Of a stretch of DNA of 61,359 nt, positions 37,601 through 58,091 are shown one piece after another. The notes beneath the pieces are model-generated. The model did not search any database. It had not been told where the DNA came from and saw only the letters and a list, made by a program, of their open reading frames with translations. The position numbers and the translations under genes were made by a program. The stretch is from Verrucomicrobiota bacterium (GTDB lineage Bacteria > Verrucomicrobiota > Verrucomicrobiia > Palsa-1439). How positions within the stretch are numbered: the first letter of the stretch is position 1; each line of letters starts with the position of its first letter. The stretch lies in NCBI GenBank assembly GCA_003152315.1, contig PLZV01000039.1, positions 152-61,510 of the forward strand. The letters are read 5' to 3'.

Positions 37601-40600
37601 GGCTGGTGGATCAGCCGGCCACTCGTGGCCGACAAGCCAGTATTGTCCGACGCGCAACAAACGTTTCTGCGCGGTTTGTCCCGGCAAACATGGCGCTACT
37701 TCGAAGTGCTGGTCAACGCGGGAGAAAATTGGCTGCCGCCCGATAATTTTCAGGAAGTCCCGACACCCGTGGTCGCCTCACGCACCTCTCCAACCAACAT
37801 CGGTATGGCCTTGCTGGCCAATCTGGCAGCGGGCGACTTCGGCTACCTCTCCGCCGGCCAACTGCTCGACCGCACGGACAAAACCATCACCACGATGGAA
37901 CAACTCGAACGCTACCGGGGTCATCTCTACAACTGGTACGACACGCGCACGCTAAAACCGCTGCGCCTGTTCTACGTGTCGAGTGTCGATAGCGGCAATC
38001 TGGCCGGGGCGTTGTACACCTTGCGTGCCGGACTTCTGGAATTGAAAAGCCAGCCAATCGTTTCGCCACGCGTTTTTACAGGGCTTCGTGATACCTTGGA
38101 AATGTTATCGTCTTCGTCAATCGACCGGCTCCGAGAAAAAGTGCAATCTCCGCCGCCGCCCAATCTCCCGGCAACATTGGCGTTGCTCCAGGAACTCAGC
38201 CGTGATGTCGCCGCGCTGCCCGCCAGCGGCGACGCGGAACAGCAATGGTGGGCGCACGCTCTCGTCCGGCAATGCAACGCCGCGCGGGACGATTTGCAGT
38301 TCCTCATTCCCGATCCCCAGCAGTTCGATCACGTGCCAACATTGCAGGAGTTGGCCGCCGCGCCCGCGGCGGGCGAGCGCGCCGCCGCGCGCATCCGGCA
38401 AATCGACAAACTCGCCCAGCGTTGCACCGAGCAGGCGGCGATGGATTTCACCTTCCTGTACGATCCCGCCTGCGACTTGTTGTCGATCGGTTACAACGTC
38501 AGCGACCGCCGACGCGATCCGTCGTATTACGACCTGCTCGCCTCGGAGGCGCGGCTGGCCAGTTTCATCCTCATCGCCCAGGATCAGTTGCCGCAGGACC
38601 ATTGGTTTGCCTTGGGCCGGCAGTTGACCACCCACGCTGGCGCGATGGCGTTGTTGTCGTGGAGCGGCTCGATGTTCGAGTACCTGATGCCGCTGCTGGT
38701 AATGCCGACCTACGAGCACACGCTGCTCGATCAGACCTACCGGGCGGTCGTGGCCCGCCAGATCGAATACGGCCGCCAGCGCGGCGTGCCGTGGGGCATT
38801 TCCGAGTCGTGCTACAACACCACCGACGCCCACGGCATTTATCAATATGGTGCGTTCGGCGTGCCGGGGTTGGGGTTCAAGCGCGGCCTCGCCGACGATC
38901 TGGTCGTCGCGCCGTACGCGTCGGTGCTGGCGTTGATGGTCGCGCCCCGGGAGGCGTGCGAGAATCTGGAACTGCTTGCGGCAGGTGGCTACCATGGCGC
39001 GTACGGATTTTATGAAGCGATCGATTTCACACCCACGCGCGTGCCCCGCGGCAAGACCAACGTTCCACTCCGCAGTTACATGGCGCATCACCAAGGGATG
39101 AGCCTGCTGGCGCTCACGTACCTGCTGTTGAATCGGCCCATGCAACGACGGTTCCTGTCGGACCCGTCCTTCAAGGCGTCGGAGTTGCTACTATGCGAGC
39201 GCGTTCCCAAGGTCGCTTCTCCGTTACAGCCACATGCGGCCGAGGTCAGCGCCGCGCGCACACCGCCGGCGACAGCGGCCTCCAGCATGCGCGTGTTTCC
39301 AACGCCGCACACTCCGATTCCCGAGGTGCACCTGCTGTCCAACGGCCGCTATCACGTTATGATGACCAACGCGGGCGGGGGGTACAGCCGGTGGAAGGAT
39401 TTGGCGGTCACGCGCTGGCGCGAGGACGCGACATGCGACGGGTGGGGCATGTTCTGCTATCTGTGCGATGCCGCCACGGGCGCGGTCTGGTCGTCGGCCT
39501 ATCAACCGACACGGCGTTCGTCGAAGAACTACGAGGCGATCTTCGTGCAGGGCCGCGCCGAATATCGCCGCCGCGACGAAGACATCGATGCGCACACGGA
39601 GATCGCCGTGTCGCCCGAAGACGACGTCGAAGTCCGCCGCGTCACGCTGACCAATCTCTCGCCCAAGATCCGCACCATCGAGCTGACCAGCTACGCCGAA
39701 GTCGTCCTCGCTCCGCTGAACGCCGACCTCGCGCACCCGGCGTTCAGCAATCTGTTCGTGCAGACCGAGATCCTCCGTAATTCTCAGGCCATACTATGCA
39801 CGCGCCGGCCGCGCGCGCCCGGCGAGGAACCGCCATGGATGTTTCATCTGATGACCATGCAAGGGACACCGGCGGGCGACACGTCCTACGAAACAGACCG
39901 CGCCAAATTTATTGGCCGCAGCCGCTCCGTCGCCAACCCGGCCGCGTTGGACGAGGCCGCTCCGCTTTCCAACACGGATGGCGCGGTGCTCGATCCGATT
40001 GTCGCGATTCGCCGTGGCGTCGTCATCCAACCCGACACCTCCGCCAACTGGCACATCATCTCCGGCATGGCCGAAACGCGCGCGGCAGCCTTGGCGTTGA
40101 TCGATAAGTATCGCGAACCCAGCTTCGCCGCGCGCGCGTTCGACATGGCCTGGTCGCACAGCCAGATGGTGCTGCGGCAGTTGCAGGCAACCGAGGCGGA
40201 GGCGCAAGTGTATGCGCAGTTGGCCAGCTCGGTGATCTACGCCAACCCGCTGCACCGCGCTGGCGCTGGCATCCTTACGCGTAACCGGCTCGGCCAATCC
40301 GGCCTATGGGGGTTCGGGATATCGGGCGACCTGCCGATCCTCCTGATGCGCATCGCAGACGTGCACCGGATCGATCTAGTCAAACAGGTTCTCCAAGCCC
40401 ACGCCTACTGGCGCGAAAAAGGATTGGAAGCTGATCTGGTCATCCTCAACGAAGATTTTTCAGGGTATCGTCAGGTCTTACAGGACCGCATCTTGGGCTT
40501 GATCGCCGCAGGCGCGGAAGCGCATCGCGTGGATAAACCCGGTGGGATTTTTCTGCGGCGCAGCGAACAGTTGTCGGAGGAAGACCGGGTCCTGCTGCAA

Positions 40601-45049: not shown

Positions 45050-45985
45050 CTACTGCAGGTAATCCAGCAGCGATTGCTTCAAAATCGTCGCCCCGCTTTG
45101 GAGTGCCGCTTGGTACGCGTACTGCGCCTGGCTCAGACTCGTAATCGTTTGCGCGAGATCAGCGTCGGCATCGTTCGAGATCAGTGTGGTCAGCGAGGCT
45201 TGCTGGGTCTGGGCCGCAGTTGTGGCCGTCGTGAGGCGCCCCTCGGCCACATTGATGTTCGTGGAGTAAAGAATTTGGTTTTGTTGGTCGGCCTGCAGTG
45301 CCGGAAGATCGGTATTGGTAATCGACTGCACGTCGCCGGACAGGAGATGATCGCGGAGCGAGATCATATGCGCGAAGAGATCCGCGCCCGTTCGCGAGTC
45401 GGCGATCAGTCCACCAGCGCCACTGCCCGAAGTGTTGGCCCCCGGTGACACGACGCTGAGCGTGACACCCTGGGCGATTTCAGCGCTCGCCACGGATGTG
45501 TTTCCCTGGTAGGCAACGGACGTAATTTGCCCATCCGAGTCGGTCGTCGCAACAAACGGTGATTGGTTGCTGAGTGTGCCGCCAAACAGATAGTCGCCGT
45601 TATACTGCGTGTTGGTCGTGCTCACGGCTTCGCTGATCAGTTGTGAGACTTCCGTGGCATAGGCGTCGAGATCCTGCTGTGATACGGCGCCGCCGGCGGA
45701 CGTGGCGATGTCGGAAACCCGTGTCACAATTTGCTGCAGCGCGCTGACCGCACTGCCGGCGGCAGTGGCCGTTCCCTGCAACGTCGCGATATTGCTTTGG
45801 TATTGCTGCAACTCGCTCGATTCGCTTTGCATGTTCAATACCTGCTGCACGGCGCTCGGATCGTCTTCGGGATTCTGAATGCGCTGCCCCGTTGCCGACT
45901 CGGTCTGCAATTGCATCAGCCTCCGCGACAGCACTCCCAATTCCTGACTCAGCATATTGGGGAACATTGAACTGGATACACGCAT
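45050..45985 (-). CDS. flgL: Flagellar hook-filament junction protein FlgL (HAP3)
   Basis: The 311-residue protein has flagellin-like ends. The N-terminal helix MRVSSSMFPNMLSQELGVLS continues with LQTESATGQRIQNPEDDPSA, the typical GxRIxxPsDDP signature. The C-terminal helix is DLAQTITSLSQAQYAYQAAL then QSGATILKQSLLDYL. The middle (YNGDYLFGGTLSNQSPF) is as in FlgL. It joins the hook to the filament and is exported by the flagellar type III apparatus, so no signal peptide is expected. It starts 3 bp after flgK ends. Confidence 0.95.
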   Translation of the reverse strand: MRVSSSMFPNMLSQELGVLSRRLMQLQTESATGQRIQNPEDDPSAVQQVLNMQSESSELQQYQSNIATLQGTATAAGSAVSALQQIVTRVSDIATSAGGAVSQQDLDAYATEVSQLISEAVSTTNTQYNGDYLFGGTLSNQSPFVATTDSDGQITSVAYQGNTSVASAEIAQGVTLSVVSPGANTSGSGAGGLIADSRTGADLFAHMISLRDHLLSGDVQSITNTDLPALQADQQNQILYSTNINVAEGRLTTATTAAQTQQASLTTLISNDADADLAQTITSLSQAQYAYQAALQSGATILKQSLLDYLQ

Positions 45986-45988
45986 GGG

Positions 45989-47410
45989 TTATGGCACTCC
46001 GGTTCCCAGACCGATCAACGTCGTCAATATTTCGTCAACAACGCTGATCACCCGCGCGTTCGCCTCGTACGCGCGTTGATAGACCGTGAGGTTGCTCACC
46101 TCTTCGTCGATCGAAACACCGCTAACTGACTCCCGCTGCTGAGTTAGCATGTTCTGGATCGCTTGTTGGCTGTTCACCTGATCGTTGACGTTGGACAATG
46201 CCTGTCCCATGTTGGCTACGGTCTGGTTGTAACTTTGATTGAACGTCATGTTGTTTAACCCCGACTGTTGCGTGTCGGCCAGTTGTGCCAGCGCGAGTGC
46301 CACCTGGTTGTCGCCTGTAACGCCGTCGGTGCCGCTGGCCTGAACCAGGGACGGATCGGTCAACAGCGCGCTGTTCACGCCGATGTCGGAGGCGTCGGTC
46401 CCGGTGAAAAACGGGGCCTTGGTGGTGCCGTTCAGACCGTATCCTTTTGCATGAACCGCGTTCACTGTGGTAATCAGGGTCGACGCGAGGGTGTTGAGGT
46501 CGTCGGATAAGGACTGCACTTCCCCGTCACGCACATCGATTCGCGCCTGGATCGAGCCGCCCGTGGTCAAGGTTGTGCCGGCAGTCTTCGCCTGCACCAG
46601 ATTCTGACCCGCGCTGTTGGTGAATACCTGGAGCGTGTCCGATACCTGGTTGCCGGAAACCATCGTCACCCCGCCAATCGACAAGGTCAGGCTTCCATCG
46701 GATTGGGTCGTTGTGGTAACACTCGCCAACTGGGACAGCTGCTCGATGTCCGCCTGTCGCTGATCCCGCAGATCGTTGGCCGTCGAGTGCGTAGTCAACT
46801 CCGTGACCGAGATGCTCTTGTTCAGGGTGGCGATCTCGCCCAGCAGTTCGTTGGCGTTCGTGACGTCGCTCTGCAGCCCGGAGTTGATCGAATCGTGCAA
46901 GCTCGATATGCCGGAGGAAAGCTGATTGAACTCCGTCGCTAGGCTCGAGGCGTTCAGCATCAGCGCCTGGCGGTTCGCCAACGATGTCGGGTCGGTCGAC
47001 AATGTCTGAAACGCGTTGAACAGGTTCGAGATGTAGTCGCCCAATCCTCCCTCGTTGGTGGAGCCTGTGGTGGACGAACTGCTGGTGTCGACTACCTGCC
47101 CCAGGGTCGCCTCAAGGTTCTGCAGGGTCGTCTGCGCCGTTCCCACGTAGCTCGTTGTGCTGTTCTCAGACTGGATTTGCGTATCCAGCAGCGCGTCGCG
47201 GATTTGCTGGATCGACACCACTTGGGCGCCCGTGCCTTGCACCCCAATCGGGGTAACAAGGGTTGGACTGCTCGCGACGATGACCCGCTGGCGTGCATAC
47301 GCCGGATTGGTCATATTCGCCAGGTTCTGGCCCGTGATTTCAATGGCTTCCTGCTGCACCTGCAGCGCGCGCGTTGCCATATCCATCGTGCCGATTGGGC
47401 CGAGACTCAT
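45989..47410 (-). CDS. flgK: Flagellar hook-associated protein FlgK (HAP1)
   Basis: The start at 47410 has an AAGGAGAT site. The 473-residue protein opens MSLGPIGTMDMATRALQVQQ then EAIEITGQNLANMTNPAYAR, the conserved N-terminal helix with the ANxxxPxYxR signature of rod/hook proteins. It ends with SGVSIDEEVSNLTVYQRAYE then ANARVISVVDEILTTLIGLG, the conserved C-terminal helix. A longer frame to 47524 overlaps flgN and is not used. It forms the first junction ring on the hook. Confidence 0.95.
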   Translation of the reverse strand: MSLGPIGTMDMATRALQVQQEAIEITGQNLANMTNPAYARQRVIVASSPTLVTPIGVQGTGAQVVSIQQIRDALLDTQIQSENSTTSYVGTAQTTLQNLEATLGQVVDTSSSSTTGSTNEGGLGDYISNLFNAFQTLSTDPTSLANRQALMLNASSLATEFNQLSSGISSLHDSINSGLQSDVTNANELLGEIATLNKSISVTELTTHSTANDLRDQRQADIEQLSQLASVTTTTQSDGSLTLSIGGVTMVSGNQVSDTLQVFTNSAGQNLVQAKTAGTTLTTGGSIQARIDVRDGEVQSLSDDLNTLASTLITTVNAVHAKGYGLNGTTKAPFFTGTDASDIGVNSALLTDPSLVQASGTDGVTGDNQVALALAQLADTQQSGLNNMTFNQSYNQTVANMGQALSNVNDQVNSQQAIQNMLTQQRESVSGVSIDEEVSNLTVYQRAYEANARVISVVDEILTTLIGLGTGVP

Positions 47411-47423
47411 GTCGTATCTCCTT

Positions 47424-47924
47424 CTACGCGACGGTGCTCCACAGCGACCGCTGCCCGATCGCTTGTTTGGCCAGTTGCCCGCTGTCGTCGTACATCGACA
47501 TGCGCACCGTGGAAAGCAGACCATCGAGCAAGCGCTGTATCAGTTCCACGGAACGCGCCAGCATTAGATGATTCTGGCGTGCCCGTTGCCGGACACGTCC
47601 CAATAATTTGTTGTTCTCTTCGACGAGGGCGTTGATCTGTAACCGATACTCGTCGGATACGAACCGGCTCAATTCCACCAGCGTGTTGTTCTGTCCGTCC
47701 ATCTGGAGCAGGCCGGCCAATTCGCGCTGGCGTGACGTGCGAAACTCACGGGCCTGGCGAATGGTTTCCATTTGGCGATTGATGGCTTGGACAACTTCCG
47801 CCAGTCGCGGCACCGTGTGGGACTTGATGAGTTCCTGTTGCTGATCGAGTAACGCCAACGCTTCGCCATATTGCTGGAGTTCCTCGCGTAACGCGTCGAC
47901 AAGTTGCTGTAGTTTCTCGGTCAT
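47424..47924 (-). CDS. flgN: FlgN-type flagellar export chaperone
   Basis: The 166-residue protein is almost entirely helical: MTEKLQQLVDALREELQQYG, EALALLDQQQELIKSHTVPR, RLQINALVEENNKLLGRVRQ. It has the heptad pattern and length of FlgN chaperones, which bind FlgK and FlgL before export. It lies directly upstream of flgK and overlaps the end of flgJ by 4 bp, which supports the assignment more strongly than sequence alone. Confidence 0.85.
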   Translation of the reverse strand: MTEKLQQLVDALREELQQYGEALALLDQQQELIKSHTVPRLAEVVQAINRQMETIRQAREFRTSRQRELAGLLQMDGQNNTLVELSRFVSDEYRLQINALVEENNKLLGRVRQRARQNHLMLARSVELIQRLLDGLLSTVRMSMYDDSGQLAKQAIGQRSLWSTVA

Positions 47925-48295
47925 CGTGGATTATCCGTCTTGAGTTGCATTTGCGGCGACGATTGCGAGGCCCTGGGCTCTTTGCCTGCCAACTGTCGCG
48001 TCAATTGGCTGCTCAAACTGTCCGCCAAGCCAAATCCCCCGCCCCGGCTGATACGATCCGCCAGTTGCGAGGTGGTCATGTCCTGATAAATCGCATTGGC
48101 TGTTGAACTGCTGGTGTACTTCGAGACAATCACGGGTTTCAGCGCCTCATGGAGAATCTGTCGCGTGACAAGCGCTTCAAACTGGCGGCTTAACTCTCCA
48201 ATCTTCGCGGGCTCGGACAATTGCTGATTGCCTGCCAGATTTTCCAGCGGCAAATCCGCGGCCTGCACCGGGCGTTCCAATGGGGACACGTTCAT
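47921..48295 (-). CDS. flgJ: FlgJ-type rod-binding protein, muramidase-free form
   Basis: The 124-residue protein contains the rod-binding domain: ELSRQFEALVTRQILHEALK, then YTSSSTANAIYQDMTTSQLA and DRISRGGGFGLADSLSSQLT. The signature A-x-x-FE-x-x-x-x-x-x-L and the IYxDMxxxxLA segment are clear. There is no C-terminal muramidase domain, unlike E. coli FlgJ, a common arrangement outside gamma-proteobacteria. It caps the growing rod in the periplasm. It sits between flgI (2 bp gap) and flgN (overlap). Confidence 0.88.
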   Translation of the reverse strand: MNVSPLERPVQAADLPLENLAGNQQLSEPAKIGELSRQFEALVTRQILHEALKPVIVSKYTSSSTANAIYQDMTTSQLADRISRGGGFGLADSLSSQLTRQLAGKEPRASQSSPQMQLKTDNPR

Positions 48296-48297
48296 GG

Positions 48298-49419
48298 TTA
48301 CCGAATCACCAGTTCTGCTTGAAGGGCTCCTGCCTGTTTCATTGCCTGGAAAATCGCCATCATGTCGCGCGGCGTGACGCCCAGCGAGTTGAGCGCCGCC
48401 GCGACCTTCTCCACGGTCGGCATCTCGGGCAAGGGGACCATGAAGGCCTTCGCTTCGGTGACTTTCGTGTCCGTACGCGGGGTGACCACAGTTTCACCGG
48501 TCTGACTGAATGCGTTGGGCTGTGAGACGTCCAGCGAGGAAGCAATCGTGATAGTCAGGTTGCCGTGCGACACCGCACAACTCGAAATGTGAATGCGCGA
48601 CGAAGCGACGATCGTTCCCGTCCGCTCGTTGATGATAATGCGCGCGGGCACATCCGGCGAAACTTCCACGGCCTGAACCAGCGCTACGAAATCAACCGTT
48701 GAACTCTGAAACGCTTCGGGAATCCGAACGCGCACGGCCGTCGCATCGAGCGCCTGCGCGCTCTGGGGAAACCGTTCGTTGATGGCCGCGGCCACGCGAG
48801 AAGCTGATGTGAAATCTGGCTCCCGCAGCAACACGTCGATCATATTGTCATGCACCACCGTGGCAGGGATTTCCCGTTCGACCAACGCACCGCCGATGAT
48901 TTGCCCGACCGTCGGGTGATTCTTTTGTACGGTCGCCCCGCCCGCACCCTCGGCACCGGCGGTGAAACCACCGATGGACACCGCGCCTTGCGCGACGGCA
49001 TACACTTTTCCATCAGCACCCTGCAAGGGCGTCTGCAACAACATTCCTCCCTGCAAAGTGTCCGCGTCGCCCATCGAAGATACTGCCACGTCGAGCCGCT
49101 CGCCGGGCTTCACGAACGCGGGAATGTCCGCGGTGACCATCACTACGGCAACGTTCTTCGACTGGATGGTGGACGAAGGAATGCTGACGCCGAATCGCTG
49201 CAGCACGTTGGCCATCGTCTGAATCGTATAGGTGGGGTTCTTGTCGCCATTACCCGCGAGACCGGCAACCAAGCCGTATCCGACCAACTGATTGTCTCGC
49301 GCGCCAGCGAGTACCGAGAGATCTTTTACGCGTACTCCAGCGGCAAAACCGCTGGGAATCCCCGCCAGGAGTGTCAACACGATGTGCAATAGCAGCTTGA
49401 GCTTGCGTAGCATGGTCAT
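48298..49419 (-). CDS. flgI: Flagellar P-ring protein FlgI
   Basis: The product has 373 residues from ATG 49419 (MTMLRKLKLLLHIVLTLLAG), with a Sec signal peptide cleaved after GFAA. The family opening VRVKDLSVLAGARDNQLVGY then GLVAGLAGNGDKNPTYTIQT is well conserved, as are IPSSTIQSKNVAVVMVTADI and AKAFMVPLPEMPTVEKVAAA near the C-terminus. It forms the ring in the peptidoglycan layer, implying a Gram-negative envelope. An ATG at 49449 would overlap flgH and is not used. Confidence 0.95.
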   Translation of the reverse strand: MTMLRKLKLLLHIVLTLLAGIPSGFAAGVRVKDLSVLAGARDNQLVGYGLVAGLAGNGDKNPTYTIQTMANVLQRFGVSIPSSTIQSKNVAVVMVTADIPAFVKPGERLDVAVSSMGDADTLQGGMLLQTPLQGADGKVYAVAQGAVSIGGFTAGAEGAGGATVQKNHPTVGQIIGGALVEREIPATVVHDNMIDVLLREPDFTSASRVAAAINERFPQSAQALDATAVRVRIPEAFQSSTVDFVALVQAVEVSPDVPARIIINERTGTIVASSRIHISSCAVSHGNLTITIASSLDVSQPNAFSQTGETVVTPRTDTKVTEAKAFMVPLPEMPTVEKVAAALNSLGVTPRDMMAIFQAMKQAGALQAELVIR

Positions 49420-49424
49420 CAATC

Positions 49425-50051
49425 TTAGAAGGGAGTGAGCTTGTCCCAAATCTTCGTGAACCAGCCCTTCTTCTCGGTGTCACTGATGGGTCCCTTGCCG
49501 ATGAACTTGATGGTCGCATCAGCAACATTGTAACTGTAGACGGTGTTATTGGGTGCGATGTCTTCGACGCGGACAACCCCGCGCAACACGGCCTTTTGCA
49601 TTTCTCCGCCGAATTCGGTCTCGCGAGTGCCTTCAACGACAAGATTGTGGTTGGGGAGAACATCCACGACCCGGACAGGAATCATGGCAATAATCTTCTC
49701 ATCAGAACTGACCGTGCCGCCACCTTGGAAGCTGTTGTTTTGGCTGGCGCTAATCGCGGGTAATTGACCTTTGTGGGTCAGAAGACCGCTGGCCGCAGGC
49801 GTATACAAGAAAGCCGCGATACTGGCATCGATGCTCGATTTCTTTGCCGTTTGTGTGTTGCGATCCTTACTGGCTGTGCTGGTTTCCTGGACAGCGATCG
49901 TAAGGATATCGCCTACCGCCCCCGCCTTTTTGTCCGCAAACATCGATTTCGGTTCCGAAGCCTGCCAAAGGCTGTCAGCCCTCGTGGCCAATGGCCAGAC
50001 CAGGGCGATGGACGGCAATAGGCTAGAAAGCAACCAGAATCGTTTGTTCAT
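49425..50051 (-). CDS. flgH: Flagellar L-ring protein FlgH, without a lipobox cysteine
   Basis: The start at 50051 has an AAGGTG site and gives 208 residues. The conserved core is present: SLWQASEPKSMFADKKAGAV then GDILTIAVQETSTASKDRNT, IPVRVVDVLPNHNLVVEGTR and FGGEMQKAVLRGVVRVEDIA. FlgH is normally a lipoprotein, but this signal peptide (LLSSLLPSIALVWPLATRAD) contains no cysteine, so it would be cleaved by signal peptidase I. It forms the outer-membrane bushing of the flagellum. Its first 29 bp overlap the end of flgA. Confidence 0.94.
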   Translation of the reverse strand: MNKRFWLLSSLLPSIALVWPLATRADSLWQASEPKSMFADKKAGAVGDILTIAVQETSTASKDRNTQTAKKSSIDASIAAFLYTPAASGLLTHKGQLPAISASQNNSFQGGGTVSSDEKIIAMIPVRVVDVLPNHNLVVEGTRETEFGGEMQKAVLRGVVRVEDIAPNNTVYSYNVADATIKFIGKGPISDTEKKGWFTKIWDKLTPF

Positions 50052-50802
50052 TCTGCACCTTGCCATGGAATATGGTTCTCGAGCGAGGATTGCGAACGCG
50101 CACGGTCTGTCCGGACGCGCCATCCTCGAGTACCTCAACCTCCAACGACACCAGCAACGCTCCATCCTGGAACAAAGCTTCCGCCAACTGGCCGCGCCTT
50201 ATGAGTGTCCGAGGCTTTACCGAACTGGCGTATAGTGGCCCGCCCGCGGGAAGATTGACGGCCAACTCGTTTGTCGCTTCCTCAATTTCGGTTCCGTCCC
50301 AGCAGGCCTCGCGCAGAACCAAGACATCGCGCTGTTCCCGCTTGAGATCAGCTTTGGCGATCAGTTGACCGCGGGTCAGGGGGCTTTGTGCGACCCACAC
50401 CTCACGAAATACCCTGGCTTGAGCAGGCATTTGCCACGTGCCCAGAGAGGCGTTGGCCGTGCGGATCTCGAATCGAACAATGAAATTGGGAGTCACGCCG
50501 AGGGAGGGCAGTTCCAGAACCTTGAACGTCAGCGGTTCATTCGGAACCGTCAACGGACGCCAGGGGTGCGTGAACCGCACTTCCAGTTCGCCTTTCTCGC
50601 CGACGTAGTTGGCCTGCAGCGTGGTGCGGAGCATTTGTCGCAATTCTTCTTCTCCAAGCACGCGCGTTTGTCGATTGGTTTCCGCCGCCGGTTCTGGAGC
50701 AAGGAGGGCGGAGGAGAAGCTGGTGGGTTCGGACAGCGCGAGTCCTCCGCGTGGTCTGGCCAGCAGAATCAGACAACCGAGTGTGAGAAGCAGCGATCTC
50801 AT
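50023..50802 (-). CDS. flgA: Flagellar P-ring assembly chaperone FlgA
   Basis: The 259-residue protein has a signal peptide (MRSLLLTLGCLILLARPRGG). The C-terminal half is the SAF-type domain of FlgA: VWVAQSPLTRGQLIAKADLK then REQRDVLVL, SVKPRTLIRRGQLAEALFQD, VEVLEDGASGQTVRVRNPRS and VQNEQTILVAF at the end. It is longer than E. coli FlgA (219) because of an N-terminal extension. It helps FlgI assemble in the periplasm. It overlaps the flgG stop by 4 bp. Confidence 0.92.
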   Translation of the reverse strand: MRSLLLTLGCLILLARPRGGLALSEPTSFSSALLAPEPAAETNRQTRVLGEEELRQMLRTTLQANYVGEKGELEVRFTHPWRPLTVPNEPLTFKVLELPSLGVTPNFIVRFEIRTANASLGTWQMPAQARVFREVWVAQSPLTRGQLIAKADLKREQRDVLVLREACWDGTEIEEATNELAVNLPAGGPLYASSVKPRTLIRRGQLAEALFQDGALLVSLEVEVLEDGASGQTVRVRNPRSRTIFHGKVQNEQTILVAF

Positions 50803-51434
50803 GTGCGCCGTAAGTTGTTGCTCATTTGCATCATTTCGTCCGAGGCTTGCACGGCCTTGGCGTTGACCTCATAGGCCCGTTGGGCCATGATCATGTTGAC
50901 CATTTCCTCGACGACCGTGACATTGGACAGTTCGAGGTAGCCTTGCTCCAGTTGGCCGAAGCCATTCTGGTTGGGGTTGCCAAGCTCCGCGGCCCCCGAG
51001 GCGGGCGTCTCGCGGTACAGATTCCCCCCAAGGCTGTCCAAACCGCTGGGGTTCGCGAAACGCGCGAGTTGAACTTGAAAACTTGTCGTGCCGTTTGCGC
51101 CGGTGTAGCTGACAACTCCATTGGTCGAGATGTTGATGCTGGTCGTGCCGGTTGGCACGGGTTGAAAGCCGCTTTGCACGACAAGACCGTCGCTCGTCGT
51201 GATACGGCCATCGGCCCCGGCCTTCAGCGCGCCATCACGCGTGTACGCCTTGGTGCCGTCGGCAAGTTGCACTTCCAGGAATCCGTCACCCTGGATCGCG
51301 ACATCGAGGCTTTCGCCGGTGTGCGTAAGTTCGCCATTCGTGAAAATCTTGGACGTCGCCACCGCTTGCGAGCCATGGCCCATTTGCATTCCCGTCGGCA
51401 GTTGGTTGCCGGAGCCCTGGTCGGCGCCCGCACG
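50799..51434 (-). CDS. flgG: Flagellar distal rod protein FlgG, N-terminus lost at a junction
   Basis: The readable part covers about 211 residues: RAGADQGSGNQLPTGMQMGH, ESLDVAIQGDGFLEVQLADG then TKAYTRDGALKAGADGRITT, and the C-terminal helix ELSNVTVVEEMVNMIMAQRA then YEVNAKAVQASDEMMQMSNN. The N-terminal 45-50 residues (the rod helix with SNNLANVNTTGFK) should precede RAGADQG but are absent. At 51434-51437 the sequence becomes the antisense of a histidine kinase gene. The minus frame stays open to 52160 by chance. It is probably non-functional as it stands; flgF is also missing. Confidence 0.88.
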   Translation of the reverse strand, partial: RAGADQGSGNQLPTGMQMGHGSQAVATSKIFTNGELTHTGESLDVAIQGDGFLEVQLADGTKAYTRDGALKAGADGRITTSDGLVVQSGFQPVPTGTTSINISTNGVVSYTGANGTTSFQVQLARFANPSGLDSLGGNLYRETPASGAAELGNPNQNGFGQLEQGYLELSNVTVVEEMVNMIMAQRAYEVNAKAVQASDEMMQMSNNLRRT

Positions 51435-52652
51435 GTCGAACTGAAGTCGGCCAATGAGAAGTTGCGCGCCGAGATCGCCAAACGTAAGGAGATCGAAACC
51501 GAACTGGTTCAGGCGCAAAAGATGGAGGCGGTCGGCCGGCTCGCTGGTGGCGTCGCGCATGACTTTAACAACATTCTGACGGCCATCATGGGGTACAGTG
51601 AATTGATTCTGGCGGACGCGACTTCGAACAGCACGCTGCATGGTAATGCCGAGGAGATCTTCAAGTCGGCACAACGGGCCGCGGAGTTGACGCGGCGGCT
51701 CCTGGCCTTCAGCCGTCGCCAGATTCTGGAACTGAAGGTTGTGAATCTGGGCAACCTGGTGAACGACCTGCTGAAGATGCTGCGTCATATGATCAGCGAA
51801 AATGTGGAACCGATTACCATCAACACCGCGGATTTGTGGCTGGTCAACGTTGATCCTCACCAGATCGAACAGGTCATCCTCAATCTGGCCATCAATGCAC
51901 ACGACGCGATGCCGAAGGGTGGGAAGCTGACGATTGAAACCGCCAACATCGTGCTCCAGGACGCAGACCGCGCCGTTACTCACGAAGGTGTCTCGCCCGG
52001 TGGGTACGTTGTGCTCTCGGTGAGCGACACGGGCGTCGGCATGACGCCCGAAGTGCAAGAGCGCCTCTTCGAACCGTTCTTCACCACGAAGGAATTCGGC
52101 AAGGGCACCGGCTTGGGGTTGGCCACGTGTTATGGCATTATCAAACAAAGCGGTGGTCATATCGCCGTGTCCAGCACGCCGGGACAGGGTTCAACGTTTC
52201 GAGTTTATCTGCCTCGCGTGACAGCCGTTGACGCGCAACTCGCCAGGCAACGCCAGGCACAAATTCAGCCCGGCGGCGCGGAAACGATCCTGCTTGTGGA
52301 AGATGAATCGTCCCTCCGACATCTGGCCACCAAGATCCTGTGCAATCTCGGTTATAATGTGTTGGCGGCTGAGAACGGGGTCGAGGCGTTGCAGGTGATC
52401 GAACAGCGGAGGGAACAGAAGGTCAACTTGTTATTGACCGACGTGGTGATGCCGAAACTCGGGGGCAGGGAATTGGCCGACCAGCTACACGCCAAACGTC
52501 CCGACGTGAAGGTACTATTCACGTCTGGTTGGACAGGGGACGCTATCGTGCATCACGGAATTCTGGACGAAGGCGTGGCGTTCCTAGCCAAACCATACAC
52601 TCCTGACGTACTGGCCCGCAAAGTGCGCGAAGTTCTCGACGCAACGGCCTGA
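51429..52652 (+). CDS. Hybrid histidine kinase with receiver, N-terminus lost at a junction
   Basis: The kinase begins at the junction with RTVELKSANEKLRAEIAKRK then EIETELVQAQKMEAVGRLAG, a coiled-coil linker. Next are the phosphoacceptor His in GGVAHDFNNILTAIMGYSEL, and the N, G1 and G2 boxes (LNLAINAHDAMPKGG, VSDTGVGM, GKGTGLGLATCYGIIKQSGG). A C-terminal receiver follows with LLVEDESSL, phosphoacceptor Asp in LLLTDVVMPKLGG, TSGW and a conserved Lys in FLAKPYTPDVL. Sensor domains that usually precede the linker are missing. The frame is open upstream to 50826, but that stretch is antisense to flgG. Confidence 0.88.
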   Translation, partial: RTVELKSANEKLRAEIAKRKEIETELVQAQKMEAVGRLAGGVAHDFNNILTAIMGYSELILADATSNSTLHGNAEEIFKSAQRAAELTRRLLAFSRRQILELKVVNLGNLVNDLLKMLRHMISENVEPITINTADLWLVNVDPHQIEQVILNLAINAHDAMPKGGKLTIETANIVLQDADRAVTHEGVSPGGYVVLSVSDTGVGMTPEVQERLFEPFFTTKEFGKGTGLGLATCYGIIKQSGGHIAVSSTPGQGSTFRVYLPRVTAVDAQLARQRQAQIQPGGAETILLVEDESSLRHLATKILCNLGYNVLAAENGVEALQVIEQRREQKVNLLLTDVVMPKLGGRELADQLHAKRPDVKVLFTSGWTGDAIVHHGILDEGVAFLAKPYTPDVLARKVREVLDATA

Positions 52653-52719: not shown

Positions 52720-55524
52720 CTATTGAGTCCTGACGGAACCGGAATCGATGAACTGAACAGGACGGTGACGGGGCAGGATGCGGATGGTAGCGAGCTGCTT
52801 GCCGCCAGGGGATACCTCCAGGACGCTTTCCGGGGCCTCGAGGTAATGGTGCGGTGGGAGGTTGTCGCCGTAAACCTTGACGGTCCAGCGGCCTGGACGA
52901 ATGTGGTCGAATGAAACTGAGCCACTGTTGTCGGTCGTGCGGCGGAATGTTTCCGTGCCGTTGCTGATTTCAGTCAACGCTCCTTCCAGGCCGGCAACTT
53001 CGGTGAAACTGTCTTTTGCCGTGTCCTTGTCGTCGGTCGTGATGTTTCCAGTTGAAGCTCCATAAACTACGACTTTGGCCGATAAGCTGGCGGCCCGCAC
53101 GACGCCAATGTCCACTACGGTCGTCTCCCCTTTTCGCACCTCGACCAATACCGGAAACACCTGGGTGGTCACCCGGTCGAAGCCGATCGATTCCTGTTGA
53201 ATACGCACCAGGTGGCGGCCGGGTTTGAGGGACGGAAAAACGAACTCGCCATTGCGGTCGGTCACGGCGGTCGCATCACCTGCCGTCAGCACAGCCCGAC
53301 TCACGGGGGCGGCCGAAGGATCCTCAACGTCATGGACACGCCCCTTCAACACCCCGACACCGGTCCTCCGTCCCACGGGGAGGCCGAAAGGAATTGAGTA
53401 CGTGACCATCACCGATTCTTCTGTTTGGTCCGGGTCGTTGTGTTTGGCAACACGGGCCGTCAACGCCAGTTCGTTGCCCCGCGAACTGGTGTAGGCGACC
53501 GTCGAATAGATGCTGTCGATGTGTCGTCCCGTGTCTGTTTCCGTTACGTTGCGGCTGAGTTGCACGTTCATGCGCAGGCCGCGGCCCACGATCCATTGTG
53601 CGGAACCACCAAAACTTTGCGAACGGCCCGGCGACGCGGTCAGCAATCCCTGGCCCGTGCTGGCAAAGAGCGAATACGTTTGCTTGGGTGTTGCCCGGAA
53701 GAAGAGGAACGTGCTGTACCGCTCGATCAGGTGCTCGTGGTGGATCAGATAATCGTACAGCGTTCCTCGTTCCGCGTAGACCTGCGCGCTGAGCCGGCCA
53801 ATGTTCTGGCCGACGCCCAGCTTCGCCGAGTGTTCGGTAAAGTCGTAATCGGCGGGCAGCATCACATCCTGACGTCGCAGGTTGGTGTAATCGAGCAACA
53901 ACTCCGTGTCGCGAAACAGGGCGTATCGCAGGCCGGGGCGATACGTGGTCTCGCGGGTGGCAACGGGGCCGCGCGCCGGGTTGCGGTCGAGGTTGTTGGC
54001 GTAATCCTGGAAATTGAAATTGCCGCGCAACCTCGCATAAATCGGAAAGGTCACCGAACCTTGCGCGAAATCTGAATCATTGTAATACCCGAAGAACCGT
54101 GGCCCCGCGTAGACCTTCTCGAGTGAATAGAAGATGTCGCGGGCCAGTTCGCCGCTCGCCTGTGCCCGATACCCGAAGTTATTGCCCTGGTGATAGTGAT
54201 CTTCCTCACCGCCGCCGCCCTCCAGGTTGATGTCGACCGCCTTCCCGAAAACCAAATGGGATTCAAGACTGACCAGATCCTGTGAAACACCGTTCGTGAG
54301 CGCTGTCCGATCCGATCCATCCCGGTGCAACATATTCGCCTTGAGGCCGAACCATGGGGTGAATTGCTGCTGCACATGGGCGCCGACTTCACTGAAATCA
54401 GACGGTTGCAGACGGCTGTCCATATAGAATGCTCCGAAGCCGGTGGGGCCGTGATGCGCGTCCAGCTCGACGCCGCGACCGTAGGAGTTCCGTTCGGTCA
54501 ACGGGGACAGTGCGTAGCTTCGGTCGCCCAGATAGGCGTCGAAGGACTTGTCCAGGTAGTTGACCCAGAACTCGTCAGGCGTTCCAAACACGCTGTCGTG
54601 CTGTGTATTCGGTGACCGGGCAAGGAAGTACAGTTTACGGTCGCCGTCTTCGTCCAAATTGCCGCCTCCTGAGTATTGCGTCTGGAATGCCGCTGACTTT
54701 CCCGAGTCCTTTACGGCGGTGAAACTCAGCCGCGTTGGCAAACGATAGTAAGGATCGGAGTCGCCCGTCACCTGGGGGAGGACCTCCACAACAGCGCTCT
54801 TGGAGGCGACGACGGCCCCACTCTCCGTAACGGCCTTGATAGTGAGAACATGCAGAATTCGCTTGTGGTTGGCGCCATCAGTGGAAACAGTCAGTCGCAC
54901 GGACTGCGAAGCGCCAGGAGCCAACTCCAGGGAGGCATGCTCGTAGGTCACCGGGTAATCGGGCATGCTCTCCACTTGCAACCGCAGGACGGCACGCTTG
55001 TTTCCGCGGTTCATGACCCGCAATAACACGTCGTAGCTTTCGCCGGCCAGGACGACCGGCGGTTGCTCGTCGACCAGCAACTCGGTCTTGTACACCGTTT
55101 GCACCGCCACCGTAAACCCAACGCTGTCCGCCAGGGCCAGATTGCGTTGACCGTGCATCGAATAGCCGACCTCGAAGCGTCCCGCCGGCGAGGCGGCAGG
55201 CACGAACAACGCAACTACGCGAACCTGCTGCGAGTTTGCTTTGACGATAAAAAACGGATCTGTCGGGGCGACTTGCTGCCATCCCGGTGGCAGGGCCAGC
55301 GCCTCCGTCAGTTGTTGATCGTGGTCGGTGTCGTTGGATACGAGAAGACCAGCCGTGACGATTTTACCCGGCGCGGTCTCGACCAGGCTGGGCGAGATGA
55401 GCCGAACCTGGTAATTGCCGGCGATCGCGTCGCGCAGACTGAACAAGAACAGGAAGCCCGCCAGCAGCAGGCGAAGATCAGCGCGGAATCGCCATGTCGT
55501 ATTGGGCCCCCATAACATGATCAT
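52720..55524 (-). CDS. Usher-like outer-membrane beta-barrel protein (934 residues)
   Basis: A signal peptide lies in residues 10-36 (LLLAGFLFLFSLRDAIAGNY). Residues 40-260 hold two Ig-like/NEW3-type domains (TAGLLVSNDTDHDQQLTEAL, LLRVMNRGNKRAVLRLQVES). Residues 270-680 are alternating amphipathic strands ending in aromatics (YMDSRLQPSDFSEVGAHVQQ, YRPGLRYALFRDTELLLDYT), as in an outer-membrane barrel. Residues 695-760 and 830-905 are carboxypeptidase-regulatory-like beta folds (TDRNGEFVFPSLKPGRHLVR, DNSGSVSFDHIRPGRWTVKV), like the C-terminal domains of ushers. I do not see a PapC-type plug or canonical usher motifs. It follows a chaperone-like gene (47 bp overlap) and two secreted subunit genes, so it probably secretes or anchors them. 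Confidence 0.7.
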   Translation of the reverse strand: MIMLWGPNTTWRFRADLRLLLAGFLFLFSLRDAIAGNYQVRLISPSLVETAPGKIVTAGLLVSNDTDHDQQLTEALALPPGWQQVAPTDPFFIVKANSQQVRVVALFVPAASPAGRFEVGYSMHGQRNLALADSVGFTVAVQTVYKTELLVDEQPPVVLAGESYDVLLRVMNRGNKRAVLRLQVESMPDYPVTYEHASLELAPGASQSVRLTVSTDGANHKRILHVLTIKAVTESGAVVASKSAVVEVLPQVTGDSDPYYRLPTRLSFTAVKDSGKSAAFQTQYSGGGNLDEDGDRKLYFLARSPNTQHDSVFGTPDEFWVNYLDKSFDAYLGDRSYALSPLTERNSYGRGVELDAHHGPTGFGAFYMDSRLQPSDFSEVGAHVQQQFTPWFGLKANMLHRDGSDRTALTNGVSQDLVSLESHLVFGKAVDINLEGGGGEEDHYHQGNNFGYRAQASGELARDIFYSLEKVYAGPRFFGYYNDSDFAQGSVTFPIYARLRGNFNFQDYANNLDRNPARGPVATRETTYRPGLRYALFRDTELLLDYTNLRRQDVMLPADYDFTEHSAKLGVGQNIGRLSAQVYAERGTLYDYLIHHEHLIERYSTFLFFRATPKQTYSLFASTGQGLLTASPGRSQSFGGSAQWIVGRGLRMNVQLSRNVTETDTGRHIDSIYSTVAYTSSRGNELALTARVAKHNDPDQTEESVMVTYSIPFGLPVGRRTGVGVLKGRVHDVEDPSAAPVSRAVLTAGDATAVTDRNGEFVFPSLKPGRHLVRIQQESIGFDRVTTQVFPVLVEVRKGETTVVDIGVVRAASLSAKVVVYGASTGNITTDDKDTAKDSFTEVAGLEGALTEISNGTETFRRTTDNSGSVSFDHIRPGRWTVKVYGDNLPPHHYLEAPESVLEVSPGGKQLATIRILPRHRPVQFIDSGSVRTQ

Positions 55525-56290
55525 CTCCGTTGTCCAGGATCACCAACGCGGTGTACTGGCCTGGGGGGACCTTGCTCACGTCGACGTGATAGCGGACCGA
55601 GCACGCCGGATAGACGCGTAACCGTTCTCCCTCAAATTTCCCAACGGATATCCCCTCCTTGTTGAACAACTCCACCCAGATGGCCGGGATCGTCACCCGG
55701 TCGCTGGCGTTTTCCGCATCGAGCAGAAACAGCCGCTTGGGGCCCTCCAGCGAGAGCCGTTTGTCCGTCACGCGCAACGTTCCGCCGCCTCCGTTGCCGA
55801 CCTCCGTGACGATTTGCACGGCAAAGCGAACGATGGTCTGCACGCGCATGCCGGTATCCTCGTTCGCCGCCCGCACCACGGGGAGCGCCACCGGCTCGAT
55901 CATCAGCATGCTCCAGTACGTGCCCGCAAGATCGTCCTGCGGCGGCACGGTCACCCGGTACGAGACCCCGGCGATTTCGTGCGCCGGAATCGTCACCTGC
56001 GACGGCGCCACGCTGATCCAGCGGGCGTTCGACCGTGGTGTCGTGCCGGGCTCACCGTACAGATCGCGGCCGTCGGCATGGAAAACGTAATCAGTTTGCG
56101 ACATTTTGACTTCCGCCGGTTCGCCTCCGGTGTTTTTCAGCAGAACCATGTCCTCGAAAGTCTCGCCCGGTCGCACGTTCTTGTTGCGCACGAGGCTGCC
56201 GATCACCACAACGCCGGCCGTGGCGGAAGCGTGAATCCCGGCGAGACCGCACGCCAGGAGCGCCAGGCTCTTCAAGCGGATATTTCTCAT
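55478..56290 (-). CDS. Periplasmic chaperone-like Ig-domain protein
   Basis: The 270-residue protein has a signal peptide (LKSLALLACGLAGIHASATA). Two Ig-like folds follow: VRNKNVRPGETFEDMVLLKN, then TGGEPAEVKMSQTDYVFHAD, IPAHEIAGVSYRVTVPPQDD, and a second half with LRVTDKRLSLEGPKRLFLLD and VYPACSVRYHVDVSKVPPGQ. This resembles pilus chaperones in size and domain count, but I do not see the conserved Arg/Lys cleft signature clearly. Its start overlaps the stop of the upstream subunit gene by 4 bp. Best guess: it folds or delivers the two small subunits to the usher-like protein. Confidence 0.72.
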   Translation of the reverse strand: MRNIRLKSLALLACGLAGIHASATAGVVVIGSLVRNKNVRPGETFEDMVLLKNTGGEPAEVKMSQTDYVFHADGRDLYGEPGTTPRSNARWISVAPSQVTIPAHEIAGVSYRVTVPPQDDLAGTYWSMLMIEPVALPVVRAANEDTGMRVQTIVRFAVQIVTEVGNGGGGTLRVTDKRLSLEGPKRLFLLDAENASDRVTIPAIWVELFNKEGISVGKFEGERLRVYPACSVRYHVDVSKVPPGQYTALVILDNGDDHVMGAQYDMAIPR

Positions 56291-56748
56291 GGTGTCACCG
56301 TGTAGATCACCGAAGAAACGTAGGTGTCGGGAGTCACGTTCTTTGACATGCCCGTCACTCGAAATTGCAGCGCCACATTGTCGCGGGTTTCCGTCCCCGA
56401 AAACACGTCCGTGTCGAGTGCGCTAATCTCGACAAACGCCGCGCCGCCGGAAATTGAGCCGGTGCCACTTCCATCGGACGTGCGGCGCACCCACAAATGA
56501 AGTCCCGCGGGCCAGGTGCCGGTATCTCGACGCGCGCTCACGTGCCAGGTTCCCGACACATTGGAGATGTTGATCGTGGCGATCCCGACCGGGCTGTCAT
56601 ACTGGCTGTTGAGATCGGTGCCGGCGCCCCCCGTCAAATCAGCAGCCGTAATCGTCTGGGTCCAATCCCCGCTGGACGCAATATCCACCGCGCTGGCTCT
56701 CACGACGAGAAGCGCGATGGCGGCGGTAAACCAATATCGGCCTTTCAT
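56287..56748 (-). CDS. Secreted pilin-like subunit B (153 residues)
   Basis: It has a signal peptide MKGRYWFTAAIALLVVRASA, then DIASSGDWTQTITAADLTGG and a beta-rich body (VGIATINISNVSGTWHVSAR, LWVRRTSDGSGTGSISGGAA). The C-terminus is DTYVSSVIYTVTP, a strand pattern like the donor/acceptor region of fimbrial subunits. No cysteines, unlike most CU pilins. The gene lies 39 bp after subunit A and overlaps the chaperone-like gene by 4 bp. Confidence 0.65.
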   Translation of the reverse strand: MKGRYWFTAAIALLVVRASAVDIASSGDWTQTITAADLTGGAGTDLNSQYDSPVGIATINISNVSGTWHVSARRDTGTWPAGLHLWVRRTSDGSGTGSISGGAAFVEISALDTDVFSGTETRDNVALQFRVTGMSKNVTPDTYVSSVIYTVTP

Positions 56749-56787
56749 GATTGAAAGTTGATGATCGGGCGGCGGCCGCGCCGCGAA

Positions 56788-57291
56788 TTACGACCCCGAC
56801 GTAATCGTCAGGGTCACTGTCCGCGTATCGGAGGCCATCGAACCAGCGGCGGGCGTAGCCGAAAGCTTGTAGGTAATCCCCAGTCCCGATTGGTTCAATG
56901 TCGAGATGCCGGTTACGACGTCAGCCGCTGATGCGCCCAACGTCACCAGACCCGCGCTGGTTGCACCGGCGGGCGCTGTCAATTGGACTTTCAAAGTCAC
57001 TCCGGCCGGCATCCCCGAATCAATCGCGGCGGTGATCTTCTGCCCGGATTGGTTGGTGGTGATGTCGTATGTCGTGCTGGAATCTGTCGCCGTGTCCGGG
57101 ACGGATCCGGGCGTGGCCGTGGATACCGTCAACGCACCCGGGTTGCCGCTGACGGCGATCTCATTGATGGCATTGACTGAAAAAGTGATCGTTTGGGTGG
57201 TGCTGCTGCCCGCGAACAATGGAGCCGCGATGACTACGAGAGCCACCGAGGCAGCGATTCCAACCAGTTGTCTGATTCCGATGTGCTTCAT
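56788..57291 (-). CDS. Secreted pilin-like subunit A (167 residues)
   Basis: ATG 57291 follows GAGGGAG; an earlier in-frame ATG at 57351 would extend past this site and is rejected. A signal peptide (IRQLVGIAASVALVVIAAPL) is followed by FAGSSTTQTITFSVNAINEI and a threonine/serine-rich beta body (TATPGSVPDTATDSSTTYDI), ending with SDTRTVTLTITSGS. It is hydrophobic, cysteine-free and strand-rich, as expected of a secreted structural subunit. First gene of the four-gene operon, likely made in the largest amount. Confidence 0.68.
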   Translation of the reverse strand: MKHIGIRQLVGIAASVALVVIAAPLFAGSSTTQTITFSVNAINEIAVSGNPGALTVSTATPGSVPDTATDSSTTYDITTNQSGQKITAAIDSGMPAGVTLKVQLTAPAGATSAGLVTLGASAADVVTGISTLNQSGLGITYKLSATPAAGSMASDTRTVTLTITSGS

Positions 57292-58091
57292 GGGAACACT
57301 CCCTCTGTTTACTATTTGCAGTCTTGCTGCCGGGGCGGCTGTTTCATGCACCTGCCCTGTACATATATATGTCGGCTGTTTCTGGGGTTTGCTGAAGGAA
57401 GGAATTGGCCCTCCAGCCCATCCAACACGTCGATAAACACCTTGGAATCAATAACTTCGTGGAATGGAACTACGAGCGCCCTGAAAACCAAAGCCACCAC
57501 CCAATTCACCTCCCATTTTGGGTTCGTTTTCGCCAAACACCCCCTTTTAGGCCCCCAAATTGGGTTCGTTTTCCAAAACGAACCCAAATATTTTGACCAC
57601 ATTCTAGGAGTATAACTAATTGCGATTACCATGGTTAGGAGCCATTTTCCACGCGAAGTAATTTGGGTTCGTTTCGCAGAAACGTATATAGGCCCCCCTG
57701 TCGCGCCATCGTGTCCGCCGAAGCTGTAGCGAAGGAGGCGGGTTTGCTGGAGAGAAGAAAGCGATCACGCCGCCACTCAACCGCTTCTTCTCCCCGTTAG
57801 AGAACATGCCCACACTATACTATTATCGTAAACCGATGTCCAGAAGAAAATGTGTTATTAACACCCGATTCCCGGGTGTTGTCATCCTGAGCAGAGCGAA
57901 GGATCTTGCCCGCCCACCACGAAGACCCCTCAGAGAATAGCGCCCGCGCAGTCCGGTTGTAGCGGCGGTCTATGACCGCCGTCCGTCTACGGTGGACTTA
58001 CCTGGCTCAATATTCCCCAGCCTGTCAACCGCCGGCGAATTCACCTCACGCGACACCGGATAGAATTCCATCTCGTCGGTCAAGCAATTGG
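57292..58091. other. Gene-free region rich in palindromic intergenic repeats
   Basis: It contains four copies of TTGGGTTCGTTT(T) (57518, 57560, 57575 inverted, 57663) and a palindromic GTACATATATATGT-type segment near 57360. An AACACCC/GGGTGTT hairpin lies near 57861-57880, followed by a GTCATCCTGAGC...GAAGGATCTT motif (57881-57907) seen between genes in many phyla. A GGCGGTC-TAT-GACCGCC hairpin is at 57964-57980. Minus-strand open frames here are translations of repeats and are not called. Confidence 0.6.
57560..57587. repeat. Perfect palindrome of the GGGTTCGTTTT repeat
   Basis: TTGGGTTCGTTTT and AAAACGAACCCAA are 13-bp perfect arms around CC. Additional single copies lie at 57518-57530 and 57663-57674. 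Likely a REP-type element. Confidence 0.65.

Follow-up and report, generated by a model that had tools for sequence, protein, structure and literature searches.

The window analysed here is the whole stretch of 61,359 nucleotides from a Verrucomicrobiota bacterium (GCA_003152315.1, contig PLZV01000039.1, positions 152 to 61,510 of the forward strand). It carries, at 52720-57291 on the minus strand, a four-gene operon for two small secreted subunits (SubA and SubB), a chaperone and a large usher-like protein, which probably form a chaperone-usher-like system assembling a fibre of immunoglobulin (Ig)-fold proteins on the cell surface. Export signals, predicted folds and the relation of the chaperone to the WxL-interacting protein (WxLIP) and to PapD-like chaperones are demonstrated; that donor strands complement the subunits, that the complexes dock on the large protein and that a chain leaves through the barrel to form a fibre is what we infer. 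The four genes are:

56788..57291, minus strand: SubA gene, 167-residue secreted subunit (open reading frame [ORF] and signal peptide).
56287..56748, minus strand: SubB gene, 153-residue secreted subunit, adjoining the chaperone gene.
55478..56290, minus strand: chaperone gene, 270-residue periplasmic protein with two Ig-like domains.
52720..55524, minus strand: usher-like gene, 934-residue exported outer-membrane protein.

In the proposed mechanism, Sec would export SubA and SubB to the periplasm, where the chaperone would lend its G1 strand to complete the unfinished Ig fold of each subunit. The chaperone-subunit complex would dock on the usher-like protein at its pair of N-terminal Ig domains; the N-terminal strand of the next subunit (the N-terminal segment in SubA) would displace the chaperone strand, and the subunit chain would pass outward through the barrel, with the C-terminal beta-sandwiches of the usher-like protein holding the base of the growing fibre. 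SubA would form the shaft, and SubB the tip, initiator or anchor. The alternating strands found in chaperone G1 and at either end of the subunits are compatible with the donor-strand reading. The relation to WxLIP, whose structure in complex with WxL has been solved (9i25), is counted in favour of the proposed system.

Gene order and its conservation

Transcription on the minus strand runs from SubA through SubB and the chaperone to the usher-like gene (57291 to 52720), with a ribosome-binding site (GGGAG) 5' of SubA. SubA and SubB are 39 bases apart, the SubB and chaperone genes share a 4-base overlap (ATGA) and the chaperone and usher-like genes one of 47 bases; such close spacing and overlaps are expected for one transcript. 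The original prediction, made from the sequence alone, had described two small cysteine-free secreted subunits, an Ig protein the size of a pilus chaperone and a 934-residue exported protein, in subunit-chaperone-usher order; all four ORFs lie on the minus strand where it had placed them, and the order holds both at this locus and across phyla. In the window, a Pfam scan gave nothing convincing for SubA, SubB and the chaperone; in the usher-like protein it gave a significant CarboxypepD_reg match at 733-806 and weak Ig/NEW3 matches at the N-terminus. NCBIfam gave no name to any of the four products, and the PF00577 usher model found no match in the source genome and none in 289 genomes of the phylum.

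A search of genome contigs with the single usher-like sequence of the window returned no relatives. Full-length usher-like relatives are present in G143 and G088, two other genera of one family in the same class, both with the order of two small secreted genes, chaperone and large gene. G396, from another family of Verrucomicrobiota, also has the operon; in G101 and G458 only the C-terminal half of the usher-like protein was matched. Among the 289 Verrucomicrobiota genomes, five gave a hit, two of these weak.

More distant relatives were sought with an alignment of four chaperones against one genome per GTDB species, giving 114 chaperone relatives; the statistics on loci rest on 80 of these 114. 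With taxa assigned by record titles, the 80 loci span at least 15 phyla, and four Deinococcus plasmids with chaperone relatives bring the total to at least sixteen. The taxa are Verrucomicrobiota; Deltaproteobacteria; Gamma- and Betaproteobacteria; Armatimonadetes; Riflebacteria; Zixibacteria; Planctomycetota; Synergistaceae; Bacteroidetes with Ignavibacteria; Schekmanbacteria; Bacillota; Atribacteria; Elusimicrobia; Aminicenantes; and Treponema. The operon is also carried by a cultured organism, Thiocapsa roseopersicina DSM 217. On a plasmid of Deinococcus deserti stand, in the same order, a small hypothetical protein, the chaperone and a 'carboxypeptidase regulatory-like domain-containing protein'; on D. 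deserti plasmid 2 the chaperone relative (L097:5965-6735) is annotated as 'FimB/Mfa2 family fimbrial subunit', probably a misannotation.

According to the profile of the large protein, 78 of the 80 loci have an usher-like relative just 3' of the chaperone gene, and these downstream ORFs are mostly collinear over about 890 profile positions. Unrelated phyla show this order again, with homology that is collinear over the full length of the proteins, which goes far beyond chance; both gene order and its conservation are demonstrated. In 78 loci, subunit relatives are encoded 5' of the chaperone and on its strand, and they are present wherever the contig reaches far enough; the five loci lacking a subunit have only about 3-855 bases of contig 5' of the chaperone. 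The recurrence of the four genes together and the predicted barrel described below mean that neither of the outcomes named beforehand as refuting the original prediction (no barrel; homologues never together in other genomes) occurred.

In a tree of the chaperones, the sequence from the window and those of five other Verrucomicrobiota loci form one group (local support 0.93), and the larger groups are mixed. Mixed groups and hits in just five of the 289 genomes of the phylum suggest an accessory cassette passed from lineage to lineage. Usher-like C-terminal halves are also found without the rest of the operon at L006:10736-12019 (directly after a NarL-type response regulator) and L014:318-1922; both resemble remnants or rearranged copies.

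Chaperone and subunits

The AlphaFold2 model of the chaperone (82-sequence alignment; predicted local distance difference test [pLDDT] 90.9; predicted template modelling score [pTM] 0.83) consists of two Ig-like domains, and is of PapD-like fold over both. Its best match among solved structures is Enterococcus faecium WxLIP bound to WxL (9i25; Z 17.3; 232 residues; root-mean-square deviation 6.0), followed by CfaA (CfaA-CfaB 4y2o; Z 13.4), FimC (3bwu; Z 13.0), YadV (5ghu; Z 12.8), CsuC (6fq0; Z 12.3) and Caf1M (1p5u; Z 12.1). The chaperone profile matches EfmWxLIP1 (E 7e-5), and five of 82 chaperone members match WxLIP_PGBD in Pfam at E up to 0.01; PapD_N and PapD_C are matched by none of the 82, whereas the FimC control matches. 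The earlier expectation of a protein like a pilus chaperone is thus borne out at the level of predicted fold, though by sequence and predicted fold the nearest relative is WxLIP, ahead of any chaperone-usher chaperone. Two overlapping segments of the chaperone are of functional interest:

55826..55891, minus strand: residues 134-155, long F1-G1 loop without secondary structure and with lowered confidence, between strands 123-133 and 156-164.
55799..55849, minus strand: residues 148-164, candidate G1 donor strand with alternating hydrophobics and invariant Arg155.

The unstructured stretch (22 residues) divides the last two strands of domain 1, and a long F1-G1 loop is a feature shared with pilus chaperones. 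Positions 148, 150, 154, 156, 158 and 160 are hydrophobic in 90-100% of 82 relatives; Arg155 (100%) and Gln159 (98%) are conserved. Arg155 is out of phase with the hydrophobics and lies beside or within the predicted G1 strand; compare the classical anchor, with Arg in A1 and Lys in G1. The carboxylate anchor of archaic chaperones is formed by Arg89, Arg174 and Tyr196 (PMC4654587). Judged by motif only, Ser127 (99%) seems to occupy the Arg89 place of archaic and alternative chaperones, and the conserved Arg225 and Tyr246 in domain 2 could, at motif level, be counterparts of Arg174 and Tyr196. The chaperone ends two residues past its last predicted strand.

SubA and SubB both carry signal peptides and contain no cysteines. 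An iterated SubA profile collects 217 ORFs, 197 of them 5' of a chaperone on the same strand; because it also recovers all 55 SubB-type ORFs, SubA and SubB appear homologous. SubB relatives lie 5' of the chaperone on the same strand in 53 loci. Operons have one to five subunits as a rule; the SubA family is often multi-copy (1-5 or more) and SubB usually single. A usually single SubB gene beside the chaperone and a multiplied SubA fit tip or anchor versus shaft: SubA is probably the major fibre subunit, and SubB probably a tip, initiator or anchor subunit. Extra SubA-like genes were also seen just 3' of the usher-like gene, mostly in Bacteroidota/Ignavibacteria (L036:10869-11516; L062:11045-11638; L087:10956-11525; others). 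The candidate strands at the two ends of SubA are:

57166..57192, minus strand: residues 34-42, TITFSVNAI, alternating N-terminal segment, candidate donor strand.
56800..56820, minus strand: residues 158-164, TVTLTIT, alternating C-terminal strand, candidate chaperone-bound F strand.

At the N-terminal end, positions 35, 37 and 39 are hydrophobic in 98-100% of 43 relatives and positions 36 and 38 in 2-14%; at the C-terminal end, 159, 161 and 163 are hydrophobic in 100% of relatives, and 160 and 162 in 0%. This alternation is strong, yet not unique along the chain when compared with shuffles, and read from sequence it supports a donor-strand role without proving it. No known pilin family was found by Pfam in 43 SubA and 30 SubB members, which gave neither a Fimbrial_CS1 nor a MatB match (the EcpA control matches MatB); the 73 subunits gave no spore coat U match in a Pfam run that had no archaic control protein. 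Pfam and profile searches of the Protein Data Bank (PDB) gave no match of the subunits to the WxL domain, and PDB profile searches with SubA and SubB gave chance matches only.

Usher-like protein, alternative readings and neighbourhood

The AlphaFold2 model of the usher-like protein (65 sequences; pLDDT 88.3; pTM 0.69) is divided as follows:

54778..55413, minus strand: residues 38-249, pair of Ig/NEW3-like periplasmic domains where ushers have their N-terminal domain.
53368..54750, minus strand: residues 259-719, predicted beta-barrel of 26 strands without plug (AlphaFold2 model; match to MtrB 6r2q).
54472..54528, minus strand: residues 333-351, GD..Y.LSPLTE...YGRG, most conserved barrel segment, with loop 338-346 likely on the outer side.
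53056..53355, minus strand: residues 724-823, first C-terminal beta-sandwich, CarboxypepD_reg (matched by Pfam in all 46 members).
52771..53007, minus strand: residues 840-918, second C-terminal beta-sandwich, SdrD_B/SpaA-like (Pfam and AlphaFold2).

The original prediction had looked for a 24-stranded barrel with plug in the middle of the 934-residue protein. The barrel is predicted there with high confidence; the strand number and the plug did not hold, the model having 26 strands at 259-719 and no plug. Closure of the barrel is read from the strand list and the MtrB match. The barrel region is 423-490 residues long in 64 relatives, and as no domain is inserted in it and no insert exceeds 26 residues, a plug of the FimD type appears to be absent from the family. 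Gaps between successive strands are alternately longer and shorter, which suggests that both barrel ends are periplasmic. G333 and L342 are invariant, and the conserved loop 338-346 may act as a gate. The N-terminal domains resemble sialidase NEW3 (NPCBM_assoc Pfam match in 31 of 46 members). In L026, L032, L044, L050 and L076 the usher-like proteins are longer (1095-1227 residues), extending at the N- or C-terminus past the 890 positions that the family shares; in L032 the N-terminal Ig pair is seemingly duplicated.

Foldseek with this model ranks FimD first (E 7.7e-16), all top eight matches being FimD, with PapC also high; the TM-scores are low (0.22-0.29), probably owing to a different placement of the domains. 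Only the ranking suggests homology to FimD. The structural aligner, which re-ranks Foldseek matches only, gives MtrB 6r2q as the best match of the barrel (Z 21.2 over 416 residues); PapC is aligned over 513 residues of barrel and C-terminal domains (Z 15.9). The alternative usher EcpC has a weak CarboxypepD_reg match at its C-terminus, a hint that the C-terminal end domain is shared. As far as these tests show, the predicted architecture is usher-like, while usher ancestry is not specifically indicated for the barrel.

Several results weigh against a chaperone-usher-like system. Barrel scores do not separate ushers from other large barrels (FimD Z 16.4; porins and TonB receptors Z 14-16). As the original prediction had noted for PapC motifs, no scanned family member matches any Pfam usher or PapD model; Usher (PF00577), PapC_N, PapC_C, CooC_C and TcfC have no match in 46 usher-like members, although among the K-12 controls FimD matches PF00577, PapC_N and PapC_C, and EcpC matches CooC_C and TcfC. 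The hhalign comparison of the usher-like profile with K-12 ushers was weak (53%), in a test in which the positive control (classical ushers against EcpC) also failed. Lastly, L019 and L020 have a chaperone without an usher-like gene downstream, so that the pairing of chaperone and usher-like gene is very strong but not absolute; in these two loci (L019:2510-3118; L020:1680-3867) something else follows the chaperone directly, in L019 a PAS-domain gene.

The missing Pfam matches bear also on descent, where the operon could be a very divergent offshoot of the alternative or archaic chaperone-usher families instead of a separate lineage; this we regard as possible but doubtful, and it is compatible with the best explanation of how the system works. 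The high Foldseek ranks of FimD and PapC, a chaperone fold close to CfaA and CsuC and the C-terminal CarboxypepD_reg match of EcpC would all fit such a branch, as would the little sequence shared by the known chaperone-usher families (PMC4654587). It is opposed, besides the usher models that match their own controls and none of the 46 members, by the predicted plugless pore of 26 strands, by a chaperone nearer to WxLIP than to any chaperone-usher chaperone and by the serine apparently at the Arg89 place (by motif only).

A second alternative, which we consider unlikely, is an exporter of surface-layer or matrix proteins, in which the barrel would secrete single Ig-like proteins that coat the cell as WxL proteins do in Gram-positive bacteria, without a donor-strand fibre. 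The chaperone has its closest relative in WxLIP, for which a role in stabilising WxL at the cell wall has been proposed and which is not known as a fibre builder (PMC10599100), and the subunits match no known pilin family, both in keeping with an exporter; the alternating N-terminal strand of the subunits is, however, what donor-strand exchange needs, and a multi-copy SubA with a usually single SubB fits shaft and tip or base.

That the barrel serves electron transfer (MtrB-like) or the export of polysaccharide (YjbH-like) and has unrelated neighbours is very improbable, since against the best barrel match (MtrB) and a weak YjbH Pfam match in one of 46 members stand the absence of the CxxCH haem motif from 65 usher-like members, the conservation of chaperone and subunit genes beside the barrel across phyla and the Ig and C-terminal domains, which MtrB, itself a 26-stranded barrel, is not known to have at its flanks. 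MtrB-like electron transfer was rejected because haem motifs are missing. A porin-cytochrome system of the MtrB type would have a multihaem cytochrome as partner; the conserved neighbours here are the subunits and the chaperone. A TonB-type receptor or plain porin is opposed by the conserved chaperone and by a barrel that has no plug but is flanked by Ig and C-terminal domains.

Around the operon in the window, a hybrid histidine kinase with receiver domain (50826-52652, plus strand) is convergent with it; in L006, L013, L014 and L026, too, the operon or what is left of it has two-component genes at its side, and this recurrence suggests that regulation by such systems may be common. Flagellar genes (FlgL, FlgK, FlgI, FlgH, FlgA and FlgG, identified by eye) lie nearby at 45050-52160 on the minus strand. 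At 57450-57640, 5' of the operon, repeated AAACGAACCCAA words and an inverted repeat, read as spurious 'KTNPIWGPKRG' peptides, look like a dispersed repeat element. A 2835-residue ORF at 34640-43147 (plus strand) resembles cyclic beta-1,2-glucan synthase of the NdvB type.

Comparison with known systems

Three chaperone-usher families are recognised, classical, alternative and archaic, and are placed in Proteobacteria, Cyanobacteria and Deinococcus-Thermus (PMC4654587). With the operon, many phyla beyond this range would gain a fibre system. No description of it was found in the full-text literature, where only open-licence papers were covered, so that this is weak evidence of absence. The operons have gone unnoticed in annotation because nothing beyond generic Ig or carboxypeptidase-regulatory domains is picked up by Pfam and the NCBI naming models, and a four-gene set spread over at least sixteen phyla is annotated merely as unknown proteins.

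With the classical pathway (FimC/FimD, PapD/PapC) the operon shares the subunit-chaperone-usher order. Classical ushers have 24 strands and an inserted plug, whereas the usher-like protein is predicted to have 26 strands and no plug; classical subunits have a disulphide that SubA and SubB lack; and none of PF00577, PapC_N, PapC_C, PapD_N and PapD_C matches the family. The alternative pathway (CFA/I, ECP: CfaA, EcpB, EcpC) is alike in gene logic and chaperone fold, but the family has no match to CooC_C, TcfC, EcpB_C, MatB or Fimbrial_CS1, and its usher-like protein combines a predicted plugless 26-strand barrel with two N-terminal Ig domains. The archaic pathway (Csu, CupE) has a similar chaperone fold (CsuC) and likewise a spread beyond Proteobacteria; the family has no Usher or spore-coat-U match, in scans without an archaic usher control, and the Arg89 signature is not seen by motif. 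MtrB matches the barrel, but the family lacks haem motifs and has different conserved neighbours.

Among Gram-positive bacteria, WxLIP (DUF916-DUF3324) of the WxL clusters has the two-domain fold and detectable sequence in common with the chaperone of the window. It carries a C-terminal transmembrane helix and resides at the cell wall; the chaperone has no such helix and has instead an outer-membrane barrel as partner, and its subunits have no WxL match. A strand inserted by WxLIP has been predicted to complete the beta-sandwich of WxL (PMC10599100); donor-strand complementation follows the same principle. The operon ties the pilus chaperones of Gram-negative bacteria to the WxL-interacting proteins of Gram-positive bacteria, and a natural usher-like pore without a plug would make the purpose of the plug testable.

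By the sequence models tested, the gene set falls outside the definitions of the classical and alternative families, lacks subunits of archaic type and has a different predicted pore; to judge by its anatomy, it shares the working plan of chaperone-usher systems. These comparisons support the original suggestion of a divergent or new assembly class, and we lean, with some reserve, towards a fourth, independently derived chaperone-usher class, in which a chaperone of the WxLIP type, of common ancestry with the Gram-positive WxL systems, would be joined to a plugless 26-strand pore not derived from PF00577 ushers, the two having reached at least sixteen phyla as a cassette.

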